Made by a program: the position numbers and the translations under genes
Part shown: one piece after another, positions 9,961-17,125 of the stretch
How positions within the stretch are numbered: the stretch's first letter is position 1
Layout of the letters: every line of letters begins with the position of its first letter
Notes under the pieces: generated by a model
What the model was told of the DNA's origin: nothing
The model's database searches: none
The model's input: only the letters and a program-made list of their open reading frames with translations
DNA from: Acidobacteriota bacterium
GTDB taxonomy: Bacteria > Acidobacteriota > Vicinamibacteria > Vicinamibacterales > UBA2999
Length of the DNA: 64,000 nucleotides
Assembly: GCA_030697165.1 (NCBI GenBank)
Contig: JAUYQQ010000008.1
Coordinates: 191,001-255,000 of the forward strand
Direction: 5' to 3'

Positions 9961-10542
9961 ATGGTTATCCAACGCGCACTGCGGCTTAGCATCTTCGCCG
10001 TCCTCATCATCATCGGCACTGCGGCGCCGGCGCGGACCCAGGGCTTCATCAGCCCGTTTCTCGGCGTTAACTTCGGCGGCGTGTCGGGATGTCCCCAGTT
10101 GAGTGACTGCGAGAACCAGCAGCGCAACCTCAGCCTCAGCCTGGGAAAGTTTGGCTCGTTCTTCGGCGCCGAAACCGAGGTGGCCTACTCGCCCAAGTTC
10201 TTCGGCGAGGCCCCGGGACTGTCGTCAAACGTCCTGACGATGATGGGGAACGTCATGCTGGCACCCAAGGTCGGACCCGTCCGCCCCTACCTTTTGGCCG
10301 GCACGGGCATCATGAAGACGCGGTTCGAATTGAGGACGACGGACCTGCTCTCGACGAACGACACCTCGTTTGGATATGTCGTGGGTGGCGGCGTGTTCGC
10401 GTTGCTCGGCGACCACTTCGGCGTGCGAGGCGACGTGCGCTACTACCATTCGTTTCCGGCCGTCACGATCCTGGGGATCACACTGCGCAGCGACAAGCTC
10501 AACTTCTCCCGCGCTGGGGCCGGCGTCGTCTTCCAGTTCTGA
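9961..10542 (+). CDS. Outer-membrane beta-barrel protein
   Basis: A 193-residue protein with a signal peptide (MVIQRALRLSIFAVLIIIGT, cleavage near ARTQ) followed by alternating hydrophobic/polar strands with many aromatic residues, ending in the outer-membrane signature GAGVVFQF (C-terminal Phe). Segments such as FFGAETEVAYSPKFF, YLLAGTGIM, and GVRGDVRYYHSF are typical of eight-stranded OmpA-like or OmpW-like small barrels (outer membrane protein beta-barrel domain). It is expected in the outer membrane; no enzymatic role is implied. It is a single gene with its own promoter. Confidence 0.85.
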   Translation: MVIQRALRLSIFAVLIIIGTAAPARTQGFISPFLGVNFGGVSGCPQLSDCENQQRNLSLSLGKFGSFFGAETEVAYSPKFFGEAPGLSSNVLTMMGNVMLAPKVGPVRPYLLAGTGIMKTRFELRTTDLLSTNDTSFGYVVGGGVFALLGDHFGVRGDVRYYHSFPAVTILGITLRSDKLNFSRAGAGVVFQF

Positions 10543-10657
10543 CGAGCTCCGCCTCGGGGTCTGTTGGGATTGGGCGAGCTCGGGAATTGGTCTATTGGAG
10601 CCACCAGCTCGGCTGTCGAATTGCCTCGGCGACTCTCGATCGTTAACATACCAGCCG

Positions 10658-11599
10658 ATGTCTACACATCATCACGCCGGCGAACACGTCGTGCACTTCT
10701 ATCGCGACGACCTTGATTTGTGCGCGGCTGTCACTCGCTTCATCCTTCAGGGGGTGGACCGGGGGGAACGATCGATCGTCCTGGCCACTGAAACGCACTG
10801 GCGCGCGATCTGTGAGTCACTGAAACAGTCAGGCCATGAGCCTGCGACGCGCGAGGTGACGTTTGTCGATGCCGACGCCATGCTTCGCGACATCGTCGTT
10901 GACGGCGTACCCAATACCCGGCGGTTTGCCGAAGCCGTCCAGCAATTCATCGCCGGCGCGCACCCACAACGCGTGCGGATTTTCGCTGAGCTGGTGACGC
11001 TATTGGCAGAACGCGGCTTACTCGATGCTGCCCTTGAGCTCGAGCTGGTTGGCCACCAGCTGACGGCTTCGACGGGCTGCGACATCCTGTGCGCGTATGA
11101 CCTTTGCCATCTCAATACGGCTGGAGATGACGTGCAGCGGGTCGCCGGCGCTCACCACCGTGCCGTTCCCGACGTGCCGAGAGGCCAGCTCGGTGCAAAG
11201 ACAATTTTGCTCGCCGATGATTATGAAGATACCCGCGACCTTTACCGGGAGTACTTAATCGCCAGTGGCTACCGTGTCATTACCGCCGAGAGCGGGCGTG
11301 ATGCGATTCGCGCGGCGACGATGTGGACGCCGGACCTGGTCTTGATGGACATTCGCATGCCCGACCTGAGTGGAGTCGATGCCATGCTCGAGCTAAGGCA
11401 GGAGCCACGTTTCAGGAACGTTCCGATCATCGCGTTTACAGCCCATGCGAGTGAGAATACGCGGGTCGAGTGCCTCGCAGCGGGCTTCACTGCAGTGATT
11501 GTGAAGCCCTGCCTGCCTGATGAGCTGCTCGAACTGATCCGCCAGTTTTCCTCATGGATACCTGACGTCGACGCGCCGGCACCGGCCCAGAACGTTTAG
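10658..11599 (+). CDS. MEDS-domain sensor fused to a response-regulator receiver
   Basis: A 313-residue protein. Residues 1-155 form a MEDS (DcmR-type sensory) domain: [34 protein letters not shown] and the conserved ILCAYDL. Residues about 185-305 form a CheY-like receiver with the acidic pocket (DDYEDTRD), phospho-acceptor Asp in [10 protein letters not shown], the Thr of AFTAHA and the Lys of VIVKP. There is no DNA-binding output domain, so it probably signals by protein contacts. MEDS domains are proposed to sense hydrocarbon derivatives. It converges on the adjacent kinase gene and their stop codons overlap (TAG 11597-11599, TAA of the other strand 11596-11598). Confidence 0.85.
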
Positions 11600-13211
11600 C
11601 CGTTGAAGCGCGAGAGCGCCGTCTGTCCACTCACCGGAAGCGTCGTGACGATCGTCGTCCCCGATCCGACGCCAGCGCTGACCGCGTGAATGGTTCCGCC
11701 GTGCTGTTCGACGAGATGTCGGGTGATGGCCATTCCCAATCCAAGACCGCCGTGGCGTTGCGTCGCGGTGATGTCGGCCTGCCGAAACCGGTCGAAGATG
11801 TGCGGTAGGAATTCCGCGTCGATTCCGACCCGGTATCTCTGACGCGGATGCTGACCACGCCAGCGTGGACGTCGGCGGCGATCTCGACCTTGCCACCCTC
11901 GGACGTAAACTTCAGCGCATTAGACAGCACGTTGCCAAACAACTGATGCAAGCGCCGCGGGTCGCCGACGATCTCCGGCAGATCGGAGGGTATCGCCGAC
12001 ACGATTTCAATCTGCTTGGCCGCGGCCGCCGGTGCCACGCTGTTCACCAGAGTGTCAAGAACCTGTTGCAACGATACCGGCTTGCGTTCGATCTCAAGTT
12101 TGCCGGTGATGATCCGGGACACATCGAGGATGTCCTCGATCAACTGCCCCTGCAATTTCGCGTTTCGCGCGATCACGTCGATCGCGTGCTGGGTACGGTC
12201 GGGCGATAACCCGCCCATCTCGAGCATCCGCACCCAGCCCAGGATTGCGTTCAGCGGGGTCCGCAGCTCATGCGACAGCGTCGCAAGGAACTCGTCTTTC
12301 AGCCGGCTCGCCTCTTCCGCCGCGGCCAGTCGGGCAAGCTCCGCCTCTTTTCGGCGGGTGACCATCATGCACACCCCGGTCATGCGCACCGGCCGCCCGT
12401 CGTCGTATTCGACGAGGCCTTGTCCGTCGACCCACCGTACGGTGCCATCGGGTGCCACGATGCGATACTCGACGTCGTGCGGCATGCCTTCGGCAATCGC
12501 CCGCTGTACCGACGCCAAGACCCGTTCTCGGTCGTCCGGGTGAATCTCGCGCTCGTAACTTGCGAAAGTTCCGTCGAAGGTGCCCTCCGGCAGGCCGTGC
12601 ATGCGGGCAAGATTGTCTGACCACTTGACCGTATTCAGCGCCAGGTCCCAGTCCCACGTCCCCATCGACGCCGCGTCTAACGCAAAACGAAGCCGCTCCT
12701 CGCTGCGGCGCGCAGACTCCTCGGTGCGGGTGCGCTCGACGGCAAACGCCACCTGCGCGGCGATAATGCCAGCCAGTTGCAATTCCTCGGGGGTGAGCTC
12801 ACGGCGTACCTCTGAGTACAACATGAACTTGCCAATCACGCGGTTCTGGCTCACCAGCGGGACGAACGCCATCGCCGCGATGCCTTCCGCACGAATCGTC
12901 GGCAAGTACGCGCTCAGAGAGGGTTCGGTGCTCACATCAGCGACGACGATAGATTGGGGATCGACAGACTCGGGTGACCACGGCGTGTGTCCCTCCACCG
13001 CGCCGCGATATGCGCCAGACAGCCCGCGGTAGGCCTTGAAACGCATCACGCCATCGGCGTCGAACAGCAGAATCGACGCGCGCTCGACTCCGAGGCCTCG
13101 AGCGAGAGCCTCAAGAGCGGCCTCATAGACCTGCGCGACGGTCCGCGTCGAACTGAGCGCCTGCGTCAGATGCAAACAGGCCGTCAGCGGGGTATCAAAC
13201 AAAGTCTGCAT
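11596..13211 (-). CDS. GAF-PAS sensor histidine kinase, frameshifted near its 3' end
   Basis: The protein has a GAF domain (residues about 20-165), a PAS/PAC fold (about 180-300), a HisKA dimerisation domain with phospho-acceptor His ([20 protein letters not shown]) and the start of an ATPase domain with the N box ([14 protein letters not shown]). At 11829-11831 (CCC on the plus strand) one base of what should be GGGG is missing, so the annotated frame runs from DTG into unrelated sequence and stops at 11631. The other frame restores family sequence ([35 protein letters not shown]) and ends at a TAA, 11598-11596. The truncated product lacks the F and G2 boxes and should be inactive. A sequencing error in a homopolymer is possible. 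Confidence 0.8.
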
Positions 13212-13621: not shown

Positions 13622-14260
13622 ATGACGACGTCCGCTCGGCAGGTGCGATTAGCGGGAACGACGCTCGGCGCTACGCGCCACGTCTGCGCCTTCTTCCACT
13701 CCAAGGCCGACGAGTACCGGGTGCTGCTCCCTTTCATCACTGAGGGCTTCGACCAGGGCGACCGGGCCTTCCACATCGTCAAAGACGACCACCGTCCTGA
13801 ACACCGCCGGCAGCTGGAAGCCGCCGGCATCGCCGTCGCGGATACCGAACGCACCGGGCAATTGGAAATTCGTCGCTGGGAAGATGCCTATCTGATCGAC
13901 GGACATTTCGATCAGTTCCGAATGCTGGCGTTAATCGAGGACGTGTTGCGCGATGGGAAGACCCGTGGCTATCCCTTGACTCGATTGGTCGCGAACATGG
14001 AATGGGCGCTCGAGGATCGACCCGGCGTCGGCGACATCCTCGAATACGAGACACGCCTGAACTACGTGCTGCCTCAGTATGACGATGCCGTGTGTTGAAC
14101 GTACGATCTGCACCAGTTTGGTGCTGAAGTCGTGATGGACATCATGCGGACGCACCCGGCGGTCATCATCGGCGGCATCCTCCAGGAAAATCCGTATTTC
14201 GTGCCGCCCGATGAGATGCTGCGCGAAATCCAGCAGCGCGCTCGGCAAAGCGCCCGTTAA
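13622..14260 (+). CDS. MEDS-domain sensor with in-frame TGA at a conserved Cys position
   Basis: Standard reading from ATG 13622 stops at TGA 14096-14098 after 158 residues (ending YDDAVC). The same frame then continues directly with family sequence, TYDLHQFGAEVVMDIM, HPAVIIGGILQENPYF and VPPDEMLREI, to a TAA at 14258-14260, giving 212 codons in all. In the sister MEDS domain at 10658-11599 the equivalent motif is LCAYDL, so the TGA sits exactly at the conserved Cys. The product is thus either truncated by a nonsense mutation or contains selenocysteine; a 6-bp hairpin begins 11 nt after the TGA. The stop lies 3 nt before the hybrid kinase gene, so the two form an operon. Confidence 0.7.
14110..14124 (+). 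other. Hairpin 11 nt downstream of the in-frame TGA, SECIS-like spacing
   Basis: GCACCA and TGGTGC form a perfect 6-bp stem around GTT. The loop begins 17 nt after the TGA and has G first, which fits the general spacing of bacterial selenocysteine insertion elements. A chance hairpin within coding sequence is possible. Confidence 0.35.
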
Positions 14261-14263
14261 GCG

Positions 14264-17125
14264 ATGGCGCCGGCTGCGACCAACGGCAGTTCCGACGACG
14301 CGGTCTCGTTGCGTCGCTGCGTACGCGAGCTTGCCGCGCTGTCGACGCTGTCGGCGGTCTGGAGCAAGAACGATCTTCCGCAAATTGCCGACGGCCTGGC
14401 CGGCGTTCTGCTCCGCGCGCTGCCCATCGATATCGTCGGCGTTCGATTGCGAGGGGCCGACGGTAACATCGCGGTCGAGACGGCACGCACTCCGCGGGGC
14501 CCGATTTCGGACGACCACCTGGGGGCATTCAGCCGCGGGTTTGATGACTGCGGTGACCTCGCCGGCGGCGCCACGACGATCAACAATCCACTCGGTGGTG
14601 GCTTGCTGCGAGTGGTCACCGTGCCGCTCGGTTACGGAAGCGATTGTGGCACGCTCGTCGCCGGCGCGGAGCAAGCGGATTTCCCGACGCAAACGGATCG
14701 ACTGATGCTTGGTGTGGCGTGTAACCAGGCCGCCATCGTGCTGCAGCAACGACGCTCGCAACAGCAGCTGCGGCGCAGCGAGCAGGAGCTGGCGGACTTT
14801 TTCGAGAATGCGACGATCGGCCTGCATTGGGTCGCAGCCGACGGCACGATACTGCGCGCCAACCGCGCCGAACTGGATCTGCTCGGATATGCCGTCGATG
14901 AGTACGTCGGACATCACATCGCCGAGTTTCACGTCGACCGCGAGGTGAGTGACGACATCCTGCGTCGCTTGCGGGCGGGCGAGCGCGTGCGCGATCGCGA
15001 AGCGCGCATGCGTTGCAAGGATGGCTCGTTCAGACACGTGACGATCGATTCCAGCGTGCTGTGGGAGGATGGCCGTTTCATTCACACCCGTTGCTTCACG
15101 CGCGACGTCACCGAGCAGAAACGGGTCGAGGAGATTCGGCGGCGGTTGGCGGCGATTGTCGAGTCGTCGGGAGACGCCATCATCAGCGAGGATCTCAACG
15201 GCATCGTCACGAGCTGGAATCACGGCGCCGAGGCGATCTACGGGTATACCGCCAGCGAGATTGTCGGCCGCCCGTTCGCCACGCTCGTTCCGCCGGAGCG
15301 GATTGATGAGTTGCCGACGATCCTGGGTCGGCTGTCGCGGGGCACGTCGATCGCGCACTACGAGAGCGTCCGCGTCGCGAAGGACGGACGCCGAATCGAC
15401 GTGTCGTTGATGGTCTCACCGATTCTCGACGATTCGGGGCGCATCCAGGGCATTTCCAAAATCGCCAGGGATATCACGCCGCGCAAGCGCGCCGAGGGCG
15501 CTCTGAGGCGTCAGAGCGAACGGCTGGCACTGCTGTGGGAGGCCGCGTCGGTATTGCTCGTGGCCAGCGACCCCGACGCGATGCTGCGCGGACTGCTGGA
15601 CAAATTTGGCGCCCACCTCGGCATCGACGCGTATTTCCATTACCTGGCCGCCGATAGCGGTGATCGGCTGAGCCTGTCGTCGTATCAGGGCATTAGCGCG
15701 GATGCCGCACGGGAGCTCGAGTGCGTGAAGTTTGAAGACGCCCTCTGCGACACCGTCGCGGTGCAGCGCACGCCGCTGGTGATCAGCGCCATTCAGCAGT
15801 CAAGTGAACCGGTGACGCGGGCGCTCAGACCGCTGGGCATCCGATCTTACGCATGTAACCCGCTGCTCGCGGGCGATCGGCTGCTCGGCGCATTGTCGTT
15901 CGCCAGCCGGACCAAGGATCGATTCGATGCCGACGAAGTGGCCTGTATCGAGACGATTTGTCACTACGTCGCGGTGGCGTTGGAGCGCTTGCGACTTCTG
16001 CACGCGTTGCAGGAGAGCGACCGGCGCAAAGACGAGTTCCTGGCGACGCTGGCGCACGAACTGCGCAACCCCCTGGCGCCCATTCGCAATTCCGTCCAGG
16101 TTCTTCACCTGCAGGGGTCGCAAGCGCCCGAGGCCCGTTGGAGCCGCGCCGTAATCGAGCGGCAGGTCGACCACCTGACGCGGTTGATCGACGACCTGCT
16201 GGAGGTCAGCCGGATCACGCGCAACCAGTTCGAACTGCGCAAGCAGCGCGTGGCCCTGGCCGACGTGGTCGCGGGCGCGATCGAGGCGAGCCGGCCCCTG
16301 ATCGAATCGTCCGGCCACACACTCACCGTATCGCTCCCGTCCGAGCCGGTTTATCTCGACGGTGACGTGGTCAGGCTTTCTCAGGTCATTCTGAATCTGC
16401 TCAACAACGCCGCGAAGTACACCGAGCCATCTGGCCGCATCGATCTGACCGCGGAACAGAACGGGAGCACCGCCACGATCCGCGTGAAGGACACCGGCGT
16501 GGGCATCCCCGCCGACAAGCTGCCGCTCGTGTTCGAAATGTTTTTCCAGGCCGATCGATCGCGCGAGCGAGCCAAAGGCGGGCTCGGTATTGGTCTTGCG
16601 CTGGCGCGGCAACTCGCGGAGGCCCACGGCGGCTGTGTCGAGGCACGCAGTGACGGCATCGGCACGGGCAGTGAATTCATCGTCCGGCTGCCGGTGCTGA
16701 GCGACGAAACAGAGCCGCCGTCAGCGCCCAGTCAACCCGCGGCACGATCGGCAGCTCAAACCGCGACAATCCTCGTCGTTGACGACAACCGTGACTCAGC
16801 GGACAGCCTGTCCGCGTTCTTGCGGTTGAAGGGCAATGAGGTGTTCAACGCCTATGATGGGATCGACGCGGTCGACGCCGCGGAGCGTCACCGGCCGGAG
16901 GTCGTGCTGCTCGACATTGGCATGCCCCGCTTGAACGGCGAAGATGCGTGCCGGCGCATCCGCTCACAGCCGTGGGGTGTCGGCATGACGCTAATCGCGC
17001 TCACGGGATGGGGCCAGGAAGAAGATCGCCGCCGAACGTTGGATGCGGGATTCGACGCCCACTTCACCAAGCCGGTTGATCCCGTTGACCTGCTGACACT
17101 GATCGAGTCCCGGCGGCGGCGGTAG
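14264..17125 (+). CDS. Hybrid sensor histidine kinase/response regulator (GAF-PAS-PAS-GAF-HK-REC)
   Basis: A 953-residue cytoplasmic kinase. In order it has a GAF-like region (about 15-165), a PAS/PAC (about 170-285, ending FTRDVTEQKRVEEI), a second PAS/PAC (about 290-410, ending IARDITPRKRAEG), a GAF (about 420-580), HisKA with the His in DEFLATLAHELRNPLAPIRN, and a complete HATPase (NLLNNAAKYTEPSG, KDTGVGIPADKLPLVFEMFF, GGLGIGLALARQLAEAHGG). A C-terminal receiver follows (LVVDDNRDSADS, Asp in LLDIGMPRL, Lys in HFTKPVDP). There is no transmembrane segment. It is downstream of and probably coupled with the MEDS gene, which would supply an extra sensory input. Confidence 0.92.
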   Translation: MAPAATNGSSDDAVSLRRCVRELAALSTLSAVWSKNDLPQIADGLAGVLLRALPIDIVGVRLRGADGNIAVETARTPRGPISDDHLGAFSRGFDDCGDLAGGATTINNPLGGGLLRVVTVPLGYGSDCGTLVAGAEQADFPTQTDRLMLGVACNQAAIVLQQRRSQQQLRRSEQELADFFENATIGLHWVAADGTILRANRAELDLLGYAVDEYVGHHIAEFHVDREVSDDILRRLRAGERVRDREARMRCKDGSFRHVTIDSSVLWEDGRFIHTRCFTRDVTEQKRVEEIRRRLAAIVESSGDAIISEDLNGIVTSWNHGAEAIYGYTASEIVGRPFATLVPPERIDELPTILGRLSRGTSIAHYESVRVAKDGRRIDVSLMVSPILDDSGRIQGISKIARDITPRKRAEGALRRQSERLALLWEAASVLLVASDPDAMLRGLLDKFGAHLGIDAYFHYLAADSGDRLSLSSYQGISADAARELECVKFEDALCDTVAVQRTPLVISAIQQSSEPVTRALRPLGIRSYACNPLLAGDRLLGALSFASRTKDRFDADEVACIETICHYVAVALERLRLLHALQESDRRKDEFLATLAHELRNPLAPIRNSVQVLHLQGSQAPEARWSRAVIERQVDHLTRLIDDLLEVSRITRNQFELRKQRVALADVVAGAIEASRPLIESSGHTLTVSLPSEPVYLDGDVVRLSQVILNLLNNAAKYTEPSGRIDLTAEQNGSTATIRVKDTGVGIPADKLPLVFEMFFQADRSRERAKGGLGIGLALARQLAEAHGGCVEARSDGIGTGSEFIVRLPVLSDETEPPSAPSQPAARSAAQTATILVVDDNRDSADSLSAFLRLKGNEVFNAYDGIDAVDAAERHRPEVVLLDIGMPRLNGEDACRRIRSQPWGVGMTLIALTGWGQEEDRRRTLDAGFDAHFTKPVDPVDLLTLIESRRRR

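Follow-up and report, generated by a model that had tools for sequence, protein, structure and literature searches.

The window, that is the whole stretch of 64,000 nucleotides that was analysed, contains a gene for a MEDS protein whose frame runs from an ATG at 13622 to a TAA at 14258-14260 and holds a single in-frame TGA at 14096-14098. The features of this locus, all on the forward strand, are the following.

10370-11599, + strand: MEDS-REC protein, a separate gene with a paralogous domain and Cys at the matching position
13622-14260, + strand: Sec-MEDS gene, encoding a 212-residue MEDS protein with selenocysteine (Sec) predicted at residue 159 and a TAA stop
14096-14098, + strand: in-frame TGA, the predicted Sec159, which would form a Cys-Sec pair with the preceding TGT; in the alignment nine other genes have TGA here and 23 have TGC or TGT
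14096-14141, + strand: extended fold predicted for the SECIS region, which includes a lower stem (-15.4 kcal/mol)
14110-14124, + strand: apical hairpin of a predicted bacterial SECIS, with a 6-bp stem and the loop GTT, G being first in the loop and 17 nt after the TGA
14264-17125, + strand: hybrid histidine kinase (PAS, GAF, HisKA, HATPase, REC), the probable partner

When the TGA was read as Cys, the read-through product matched the Pfam domain MEDS (PF14417) at 5.3e-39 and 134.1 bits (gathering score 29.8). Residues 19-179 of the protein were aligned to positions 1-161 of the 161 in the model, a match that spans the TGA at residue 159, and MEDS was the sole domain reported by Pfam. An initial annotation, made from the letters of the window, had described family sequence running in one frame on both sides of the TGA to the TAA, and the passage of the PF14417 match across residue 159 bears this out, as the sequence does for the TGT said to precede the TGA. 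The same annotation had placed the TGA at a conserved MEDS Cys, in agreement with the TGC or TGT carried there by the 23 relatives compared, and had pointed to a Cys at the matching site of the sister MEDS-REC protein; the motif LCAYDL is indeed present in the product of 10370-11599, a gene whose TTG start at 10370 is probably placed too far upstream.

The only NCBIfam model matched by Sec-MEDS was NF041045, describing the RsbA-family anti-sigma regulators, to which residues 19-208 aligned with 55.1 bits. This is far under the 210-bit cut-off and covers only model positions 2-177 of 303, and membership of the RsbA family was rejected.

Relatives of the gene and of the adjoining kinase

A scan of one genome per species gave 19 loci, six with TGA exactly at residue 159 and 13 with Cys, and whole-genome searches revealed three more TGA genes, in the genomes G472, G154 (a second copy) and G160. 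Including the window there are 10 TGA genes in 9 genomes, all with the TGA at the same codon. The nine others are spread over eight draft genomes, and the draft titles of the named TGA genomes are Acidobacteria, Thermoanaerobaculum, Planctomycetota, Armatimonadetes and Betaproteobacteria. When site 159 was aligned, 10 genes showed TGA and 23 showed TGC or TGT, only Cys codons being found among the non-TGA genes. The initial annotation had proposed a search for homologues with TGA at this site and had named homologues with only Cys and no hairpin as evidence against a selenoprotein; nine further TGA genes were found, and all 10 TGA genes have a hairpin.

Left out of this comparison of 10 and 23 genes were L021 (the same stretch as L048), L022-L029 (22-52% identity; Cys in seven of them, the site missing from L024), L108-L116 and L141 (lower-scoring or incomplete matches with no internal stops) and the repeat fetches L102, L103 and L119-L137. 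The near-copies L043 and L045 were both counted among the 23, and L045 was omitted from the tree. In this tree (32 rows) the Sec label changes six times on the best topology, only one of the changes being forced by well-supported branches. G160 has the MEDS gene in two versions, one with Cys and one with TGA (L129 and L138), and in G154 there are two copies with TGA (L117 and L119). G033, a member of the same family as the window's genome, has the same MEDS stretch as L048, an Acidobacteria record, which places the window in the phylum Acidobacteriota, and the contig G397:C25 carries a Cys-type MEDS gene followed by a second partial MEDS stretch and then a kinase match (L107, L116).

The family looks rare, although the counts are lower bounds, the searches at 1e-30, 1e-40 and 1e-60 having scored the first 7-8 candidates of each genome. 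Of the 149 genomes related to the window's, 11 gave a match at 1e-3, with TGA only in the window's own, and among 396 genomes of its phylum at least 14 gave a match at 1e-30, with TGA in three of at least 15 matches (one of the three being the L031 genome again). The 369 genomes of the class of G154 include at least two with a match at 1e-40 and the 392 genomes of the phylum of G149 at least three at 1e-60. None of 33 candidate stretches in viral contigs was a relative and no copies of the MEDS gene were found in phage records, and 29 plasmid records contain MEDS relatives, all of them below 60% identity.

Downstream of the MEDS gene the kinase starts at 14264 in the window, 3 nt past the MEDS stop. 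In every one of the eight TGA loci whose downstream sequence exceeds 1 kb, a match to the first 175 residues of this kinase was present (the window itself served as query; the seven others matched at E 1.5e-7 or lower), and the same eight loci also match the whole kinase. The ninth TGA locus, which ends 286 bp after the TGA, gave a weak match to the start of the kinase (E 0.12), and the tenth ends at once. According to Pfam, HisKA and HATPase are present in six out of six kinase frames (window, L142, L143, L145, L149 and L150) and a receiver domain in four of these, L145 and L149 being without it. Kinase frames are also present in L039 and L034, the one in L034 seemingly disrupted by a change of frame, and one ORF each in L144 and L146, on the strand opposite the kinase, gave no Pfam match, the kinase frames of these loci being seen separately. 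For the 23 Cys loci the N-terminal part of the kinase was matched at E < 1e-5 in 17 and other parts of the kinase in L118, L151 and L152, and no kinase match was obtained in L042 (106 bp only), L043 and L045. The MEDS-kinase pair is thus common to the Sec and the Cys forms.

The hairpin downstream of the TGA

The hairpin consists of GCACCA (14110-14115) and TGGTGC (14119-14124) enclosing the loop GTT (14116-14118), with 11 nt between TGA and stem and 17 nt between TGA and loop, so that the perfect 6-bp stem and the loop G described in the initial annotation were recovered to the nucleotide. A lower stem like that of the extended fold is predicted for the consensus of all 10 TGA genes too, where some of its pairs are broken. 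In the available text of PMC13188914 a bacterial SECIS is defined by a loop of 3-9 nt, a stem of 4-16 bp and G in one of the first two loop positions, and further by a loop situated 16-37 nt after the UGA and an energy of at most -7.5 kcal/mol. The earlier statement that the spacing fits that of known bacterial SECIS elements agrees with this definition, its geometry being found in all 10 TGA genes. For the energy limit, the 48-nt fold of the window (-15.4 kcal/mol) lies within it while the isolated stem (-7.2 kcal/mol) just misses it.

Taken alone, the window's own hairpin is weak evidence for Sec coding. Its 48-nt fold is mildly unusual (z -1.85, 11 of 200 shuffles being equally stable), and 90 of 4000 synonymous recodings of the window gene were equally stable at the hairpin site. 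The hairpin is placed above chance by its recurrence at the same place in 10 out of 10 TGA genes and, at a limit of -3.5 kcal/mol, in none of the 23 Cys genes. This limit was chosen after the first hairpin table and lies narrowly beside the energy of the least stable TGA gene (-3.7); with no limit, one of the 23 Cys genes would be counted as well (L037, -0.2). The SECIS-like hairpins of the 10 TGA genes all combine a loop 16-17 nt past the codon with a stem of 4 bp or more without interruption (G-U pairs permitted), G in one of the first two loop positions and an energy between -3.7 and -10.7 kcal/mol, whereas 22 of the 23 Cys genes are without a hairpin at the same offset and L037 has one at -0.2 kcal/mol. 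Comparing the best hairpin energies of TGA and Cys genes gave a one-sided Mann-Whitney p of 1e-5, which is indicative only, the rows being related. Eight of the TGA genes have the core GCCA-AGTT-TGGC in common, and the window (CACCA-GTT-TGGTG) and L040 (GCCG-GTT-CGGC) show the same shape with other arm bases and a 3-nt loop.

When the TGA genes were recoded synonymously, the observed stability at the site was equalled in 9 to 155 of 4000 recodings for nine of them and in 979 of 4000 for L040, whose upper stem has -3.7 kcal/mol; with the loop allowed at any position from 16 to 37 the numbers were 36 to 227 of 4000 for eight genes, 699 for L034 and 1212 for L040. When the residues of the Cys genes themselves were recoded, a hairpin of -6 kcal/mol or better arose at the site in 316 of 11500 cases. 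RNAalifold gave no covariation bonus for the 10 TGA genes (+0.67), the 3-nt loop of the window gene and L040 being shifted one register, and the Rfam model SECIS_1 had no match at the window, the same model matching none of 14 controls. For Gly167, which contributes to the 3' arm of the stem, every one of the 10 TGA genes uses GGY, while a Gly codon of any kind occurs there in three of the 23 Cys genes, and the loop codon of Phe166 is TTT in nine of the 10 TGA genes while the surrounding codons of those genes have TTC 65 times and TTT 10 times. To judge from this codon use the hairpin seems to constrain the protein sequence.

Selenocysteine machinery and predicted fold

The window's genome (5.39 Mb, 23 contigs) was scanned for the genes selA, selB, selC and selD, which the initial annotation had suggested looking for, and all four were found. 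The match to selA reached 532.7 bits (cut-off 267.9) and that to selB 309.3 bits (cut-off 242.25), the latter in a frame of 643 residues in which the winged-helix and beta-barrel domains of SelB were recognised. The tRNA-Sec was identified with 61.9 bits (gathering 47) and given the anticodon UCA by ARAGORN, which identified a further match, at 50 bits likewise over the cut-off, as tRNA-Ser. The selD gene (354.7 bits; L050, G000:C8:380119-381045) carries an in-frame TGA of its own in the context SCAG-TGA-ASK, and the 60 nt from this TGA fold at -28.1 kcal/mol. Since selD has a TGA at which a strong fold starts, it is very probable that UGA is read as Sec at other places in this genome as well.

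The tests for selB and selD covered the window's genome only. Of the seven other TGA genomes tested (G472 was left out), selA was over the cut-off in six and a tRNA-Sec was reported by ARAGORN in five. In G152 (L038/L145), a draft bin titled Armatimonadetes, no selA was over the cut-off and the best match to the tRNA-Sec model was a tRNA-Ser; this genome nonetheless has a TGA-MEDS gene with hairpin, and the gap may reflect an incomplete bin, a misplaced contig or a recent transfer. In G149 selA is present, and the two tRNA matches examined were a tRNA-Leu and a tRNA-Ser with no tRNA-Sec among them. As both selA and tRNA-Sec were also found in seven of 12 genomes with only Cys-MEDS genes, the machinery supports Sec coding without sharply discriminating. 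In G154 a SelO gene (L148:625-2265) is located upstream of a TGA-MEDS gene on the same strand.

The AlphaFold model of Sec-MEDS (pLDDT 87.3) resembles KaiC (Z 15.1, rmsd 3.4 over 179 residues), with matches also to FlaH and other RecA-like proteins, whereas a search of the PDB by sequence gave two matches at E 0.3-0.4 that are not credible. Inspected by eye, residues 22-34, CAFFHSKADEYRV, are without the GK[ST] of a Walker A P-loop, and this distinguishes Sec-MEDS from the KaiC/FlaH RecA-like ATPases, which are alike in predicted fold. The predicted structure is a KaiC/RecA-like fold without P-loop. In the model residue 159 lies in the middle of the core strand 156-162 and Cys22 in the strand 20-25, two strands that are usually neighbours in RecA-like folds, and from this strand order a Cys22-Sec159 pair is possible. 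Cys22 is invariant in 14 out of 14 aligned members. The window's MEDS-REC protein, by eye, has no Cys at that place, so Cys22 is not general to MEDS.

Probable selenocysteine coding and a possible sensor

From the comparison of genes we are confident that the UGA at 14096-14098 codes for Sec, which would make this a selenoprotein gene. This possibility, raised in the initial annotation, has gained support from the machinery, from TGA at the same codon in 10 genes and from a hairpin confined, among the genes compared, to those with TGA. In the proposed mechanism SelB and tRNA-Sec would decode the UGA as Sec, directed by the downstream hairpin, and the outcome would be a full-length MEDS protein with Sec where its relatives have Cys. 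Sec159, as a reactive selenolate, would then meet an electrophilic small molecule or an oxidant, whereupon the MEDS fold would change, followed by the phosphorylation state of the partner kinase. The Sec coding, the SECIS-like hairpin, the gene pair and the predicted fold are supported by the sequence and model comparisons; that Sec-MEDS acts as a sensor for the adjoining kinase is something we infer. Its sensing mechanism, reaction of Sec with an electrophile or oxidant and control of the kinase, is put forward as the likeliest course of events, at somewhat less than even odds.

MEDS regulators are described, in the available text of PMC11507031 and PMC8784404, as sensing small hydrocarbon derivatives (dichloromethane for DcmR, epoxyethane for the ethene regulators) and as signalling to two-component systems or transcription factors. 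Both compounds are electrophiles and may react with the Cys or Sec of a MEDS domain. At neutral pH Sec is more reactive than Cys. A selenoprotein could also be an enzyme or a redox partner instead of a kinase sensor, and the authors of PMC13188914, in its available text, think of most uncharacterised selenoproteins as redox proteins. We consider this unlikely in the present case, with MEDS domains described as sensory (PMC11507031 and PMC8784404, available text), a kinase gene directly downstream and MEDS shown alone in the protein by Pfam.

A further reading, compatible with Sec coding, takes the TGA as a regulated stop, giving a functional short form and a Sec-containing long form, with selenium setting the ratio between them and the translation of the kinase, which, starting 3 nt past the TAA, could depend on read-through. 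The median pN/pS, determined in 36 pairs of nine TGA genes (L040 was left out, its contig ending), is 0.25 over the 47 codons after the TGA and 0.27 over the 60 codons before it, and such similar values on both sides are the pattern expected of a translated and needed tail. Constraint after the TGA that is about equal to that before it, a Pfam MEDS match reaching residue 179 and 23 Cys relatives without such a stop make a regulated stop improbable.

The initial annotation had also weighed a fresh nonsense change, citing a frameshift in a neighbouring kinase. This frameshift looks real: in the GAF-PAS histidine kinase at 11634-13211 (- strand) the HATPase match breaks off at position 63 of 111 and the domain, by eye, seems to be continued in another frame. 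Together with a window hairpin that is only mildly unusual by itself it would fit an ordinary Cys-MEDS gene that has suffered a nonsense mutation and is decaying, or one in which the TGA is a sequencing error and not real. A fresh change or a read error fails, however, to explain the same TGA and hairpin in ten genes of nine genomes. With nine of these genes in eight other genomes, the 23 Cys relatives without a stable hairpin and the pN/pS alike before and after the TGA, a mutation or error is very improbable. Least likely of all is that a reassigned or suppressor tRNA inserts Trp, Gly or Cys at the UGA, for although relatives have Cys at the site, the genome holds a complete Sec machinery and a TGA-bearing selD, the SECIS-like hairpin is restricted to TGA genes among those compared and the 23 non-TGA genes have only Cys codons there.

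If the UGA is read as Sec, the gene resembles the bacterial selenoproteins catalogued in Table 1 of PMC13188914 in having TGA at a Cys position, a SECIS-like hairpin, Sec machinery and Cys homologues. That paper (2026) covers, in its available text, 119 selenoprotein families or subfamilies; no MEDS or DcmR protein appears in the available part of its Table 1 and nowhere does the main text, as available, mention MEDS, DcmR, a sensor or a histidine kinase. MEDS is not among the nine families added in the available text of PMC12013277, and NCBIfam (June 2026) has no selenoprotein model for Sec-MEDS. The earlier remark that no described MEDS selenoprotein was known is in line with the literature searched, most subscription papers and all preprints lying outside its scope, and Sec-MEDS seems to be an undescribed selenoprotein family, which could exist unremarked in database records or other papers.

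With the MEDS regulators DcmR and EtnR2 (PF14417) it has the full-length MEDS domain in common, and the described link of EtnR1/EtnR2 to two-component signalling (PMC11507031 and PMC8784404, available text) is similar to the kinase pairing found here. Unlike DcmR and EtnR2, Sec-MEDS has a predicted Sec in place of Cys, is a MEDS-only protein and has its kinase as a separate gene; a hydrocarbon ligand would be putative in its case.

Among selenoproteins Sec-MEDS has the appearance of a sensor, not of a redox enzyme. Site 159 is a candidate for the reactive residue of the MEDS domain; in the available text of PMC11507031 and PMC8784404 the inducers of MEDS regulators are described and a reactive residue is not named. 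With Sec or Cys at one and the same site, and both forms in G160, the advantage of Sec over Cys could be tested in a signalling read-out. More tentatively still, Sec-MEDS may found a class of selenium-based signal-transduction sensors, in which Sec in the core of a P-loop-less KaiC fold would react with an electrophile or oxidant, perhaps by way of a Cys22-Sec159 selenenylsulfide, and switch the adjoining kinase. If true, selenium chemistry would directly enter two-component signalling.
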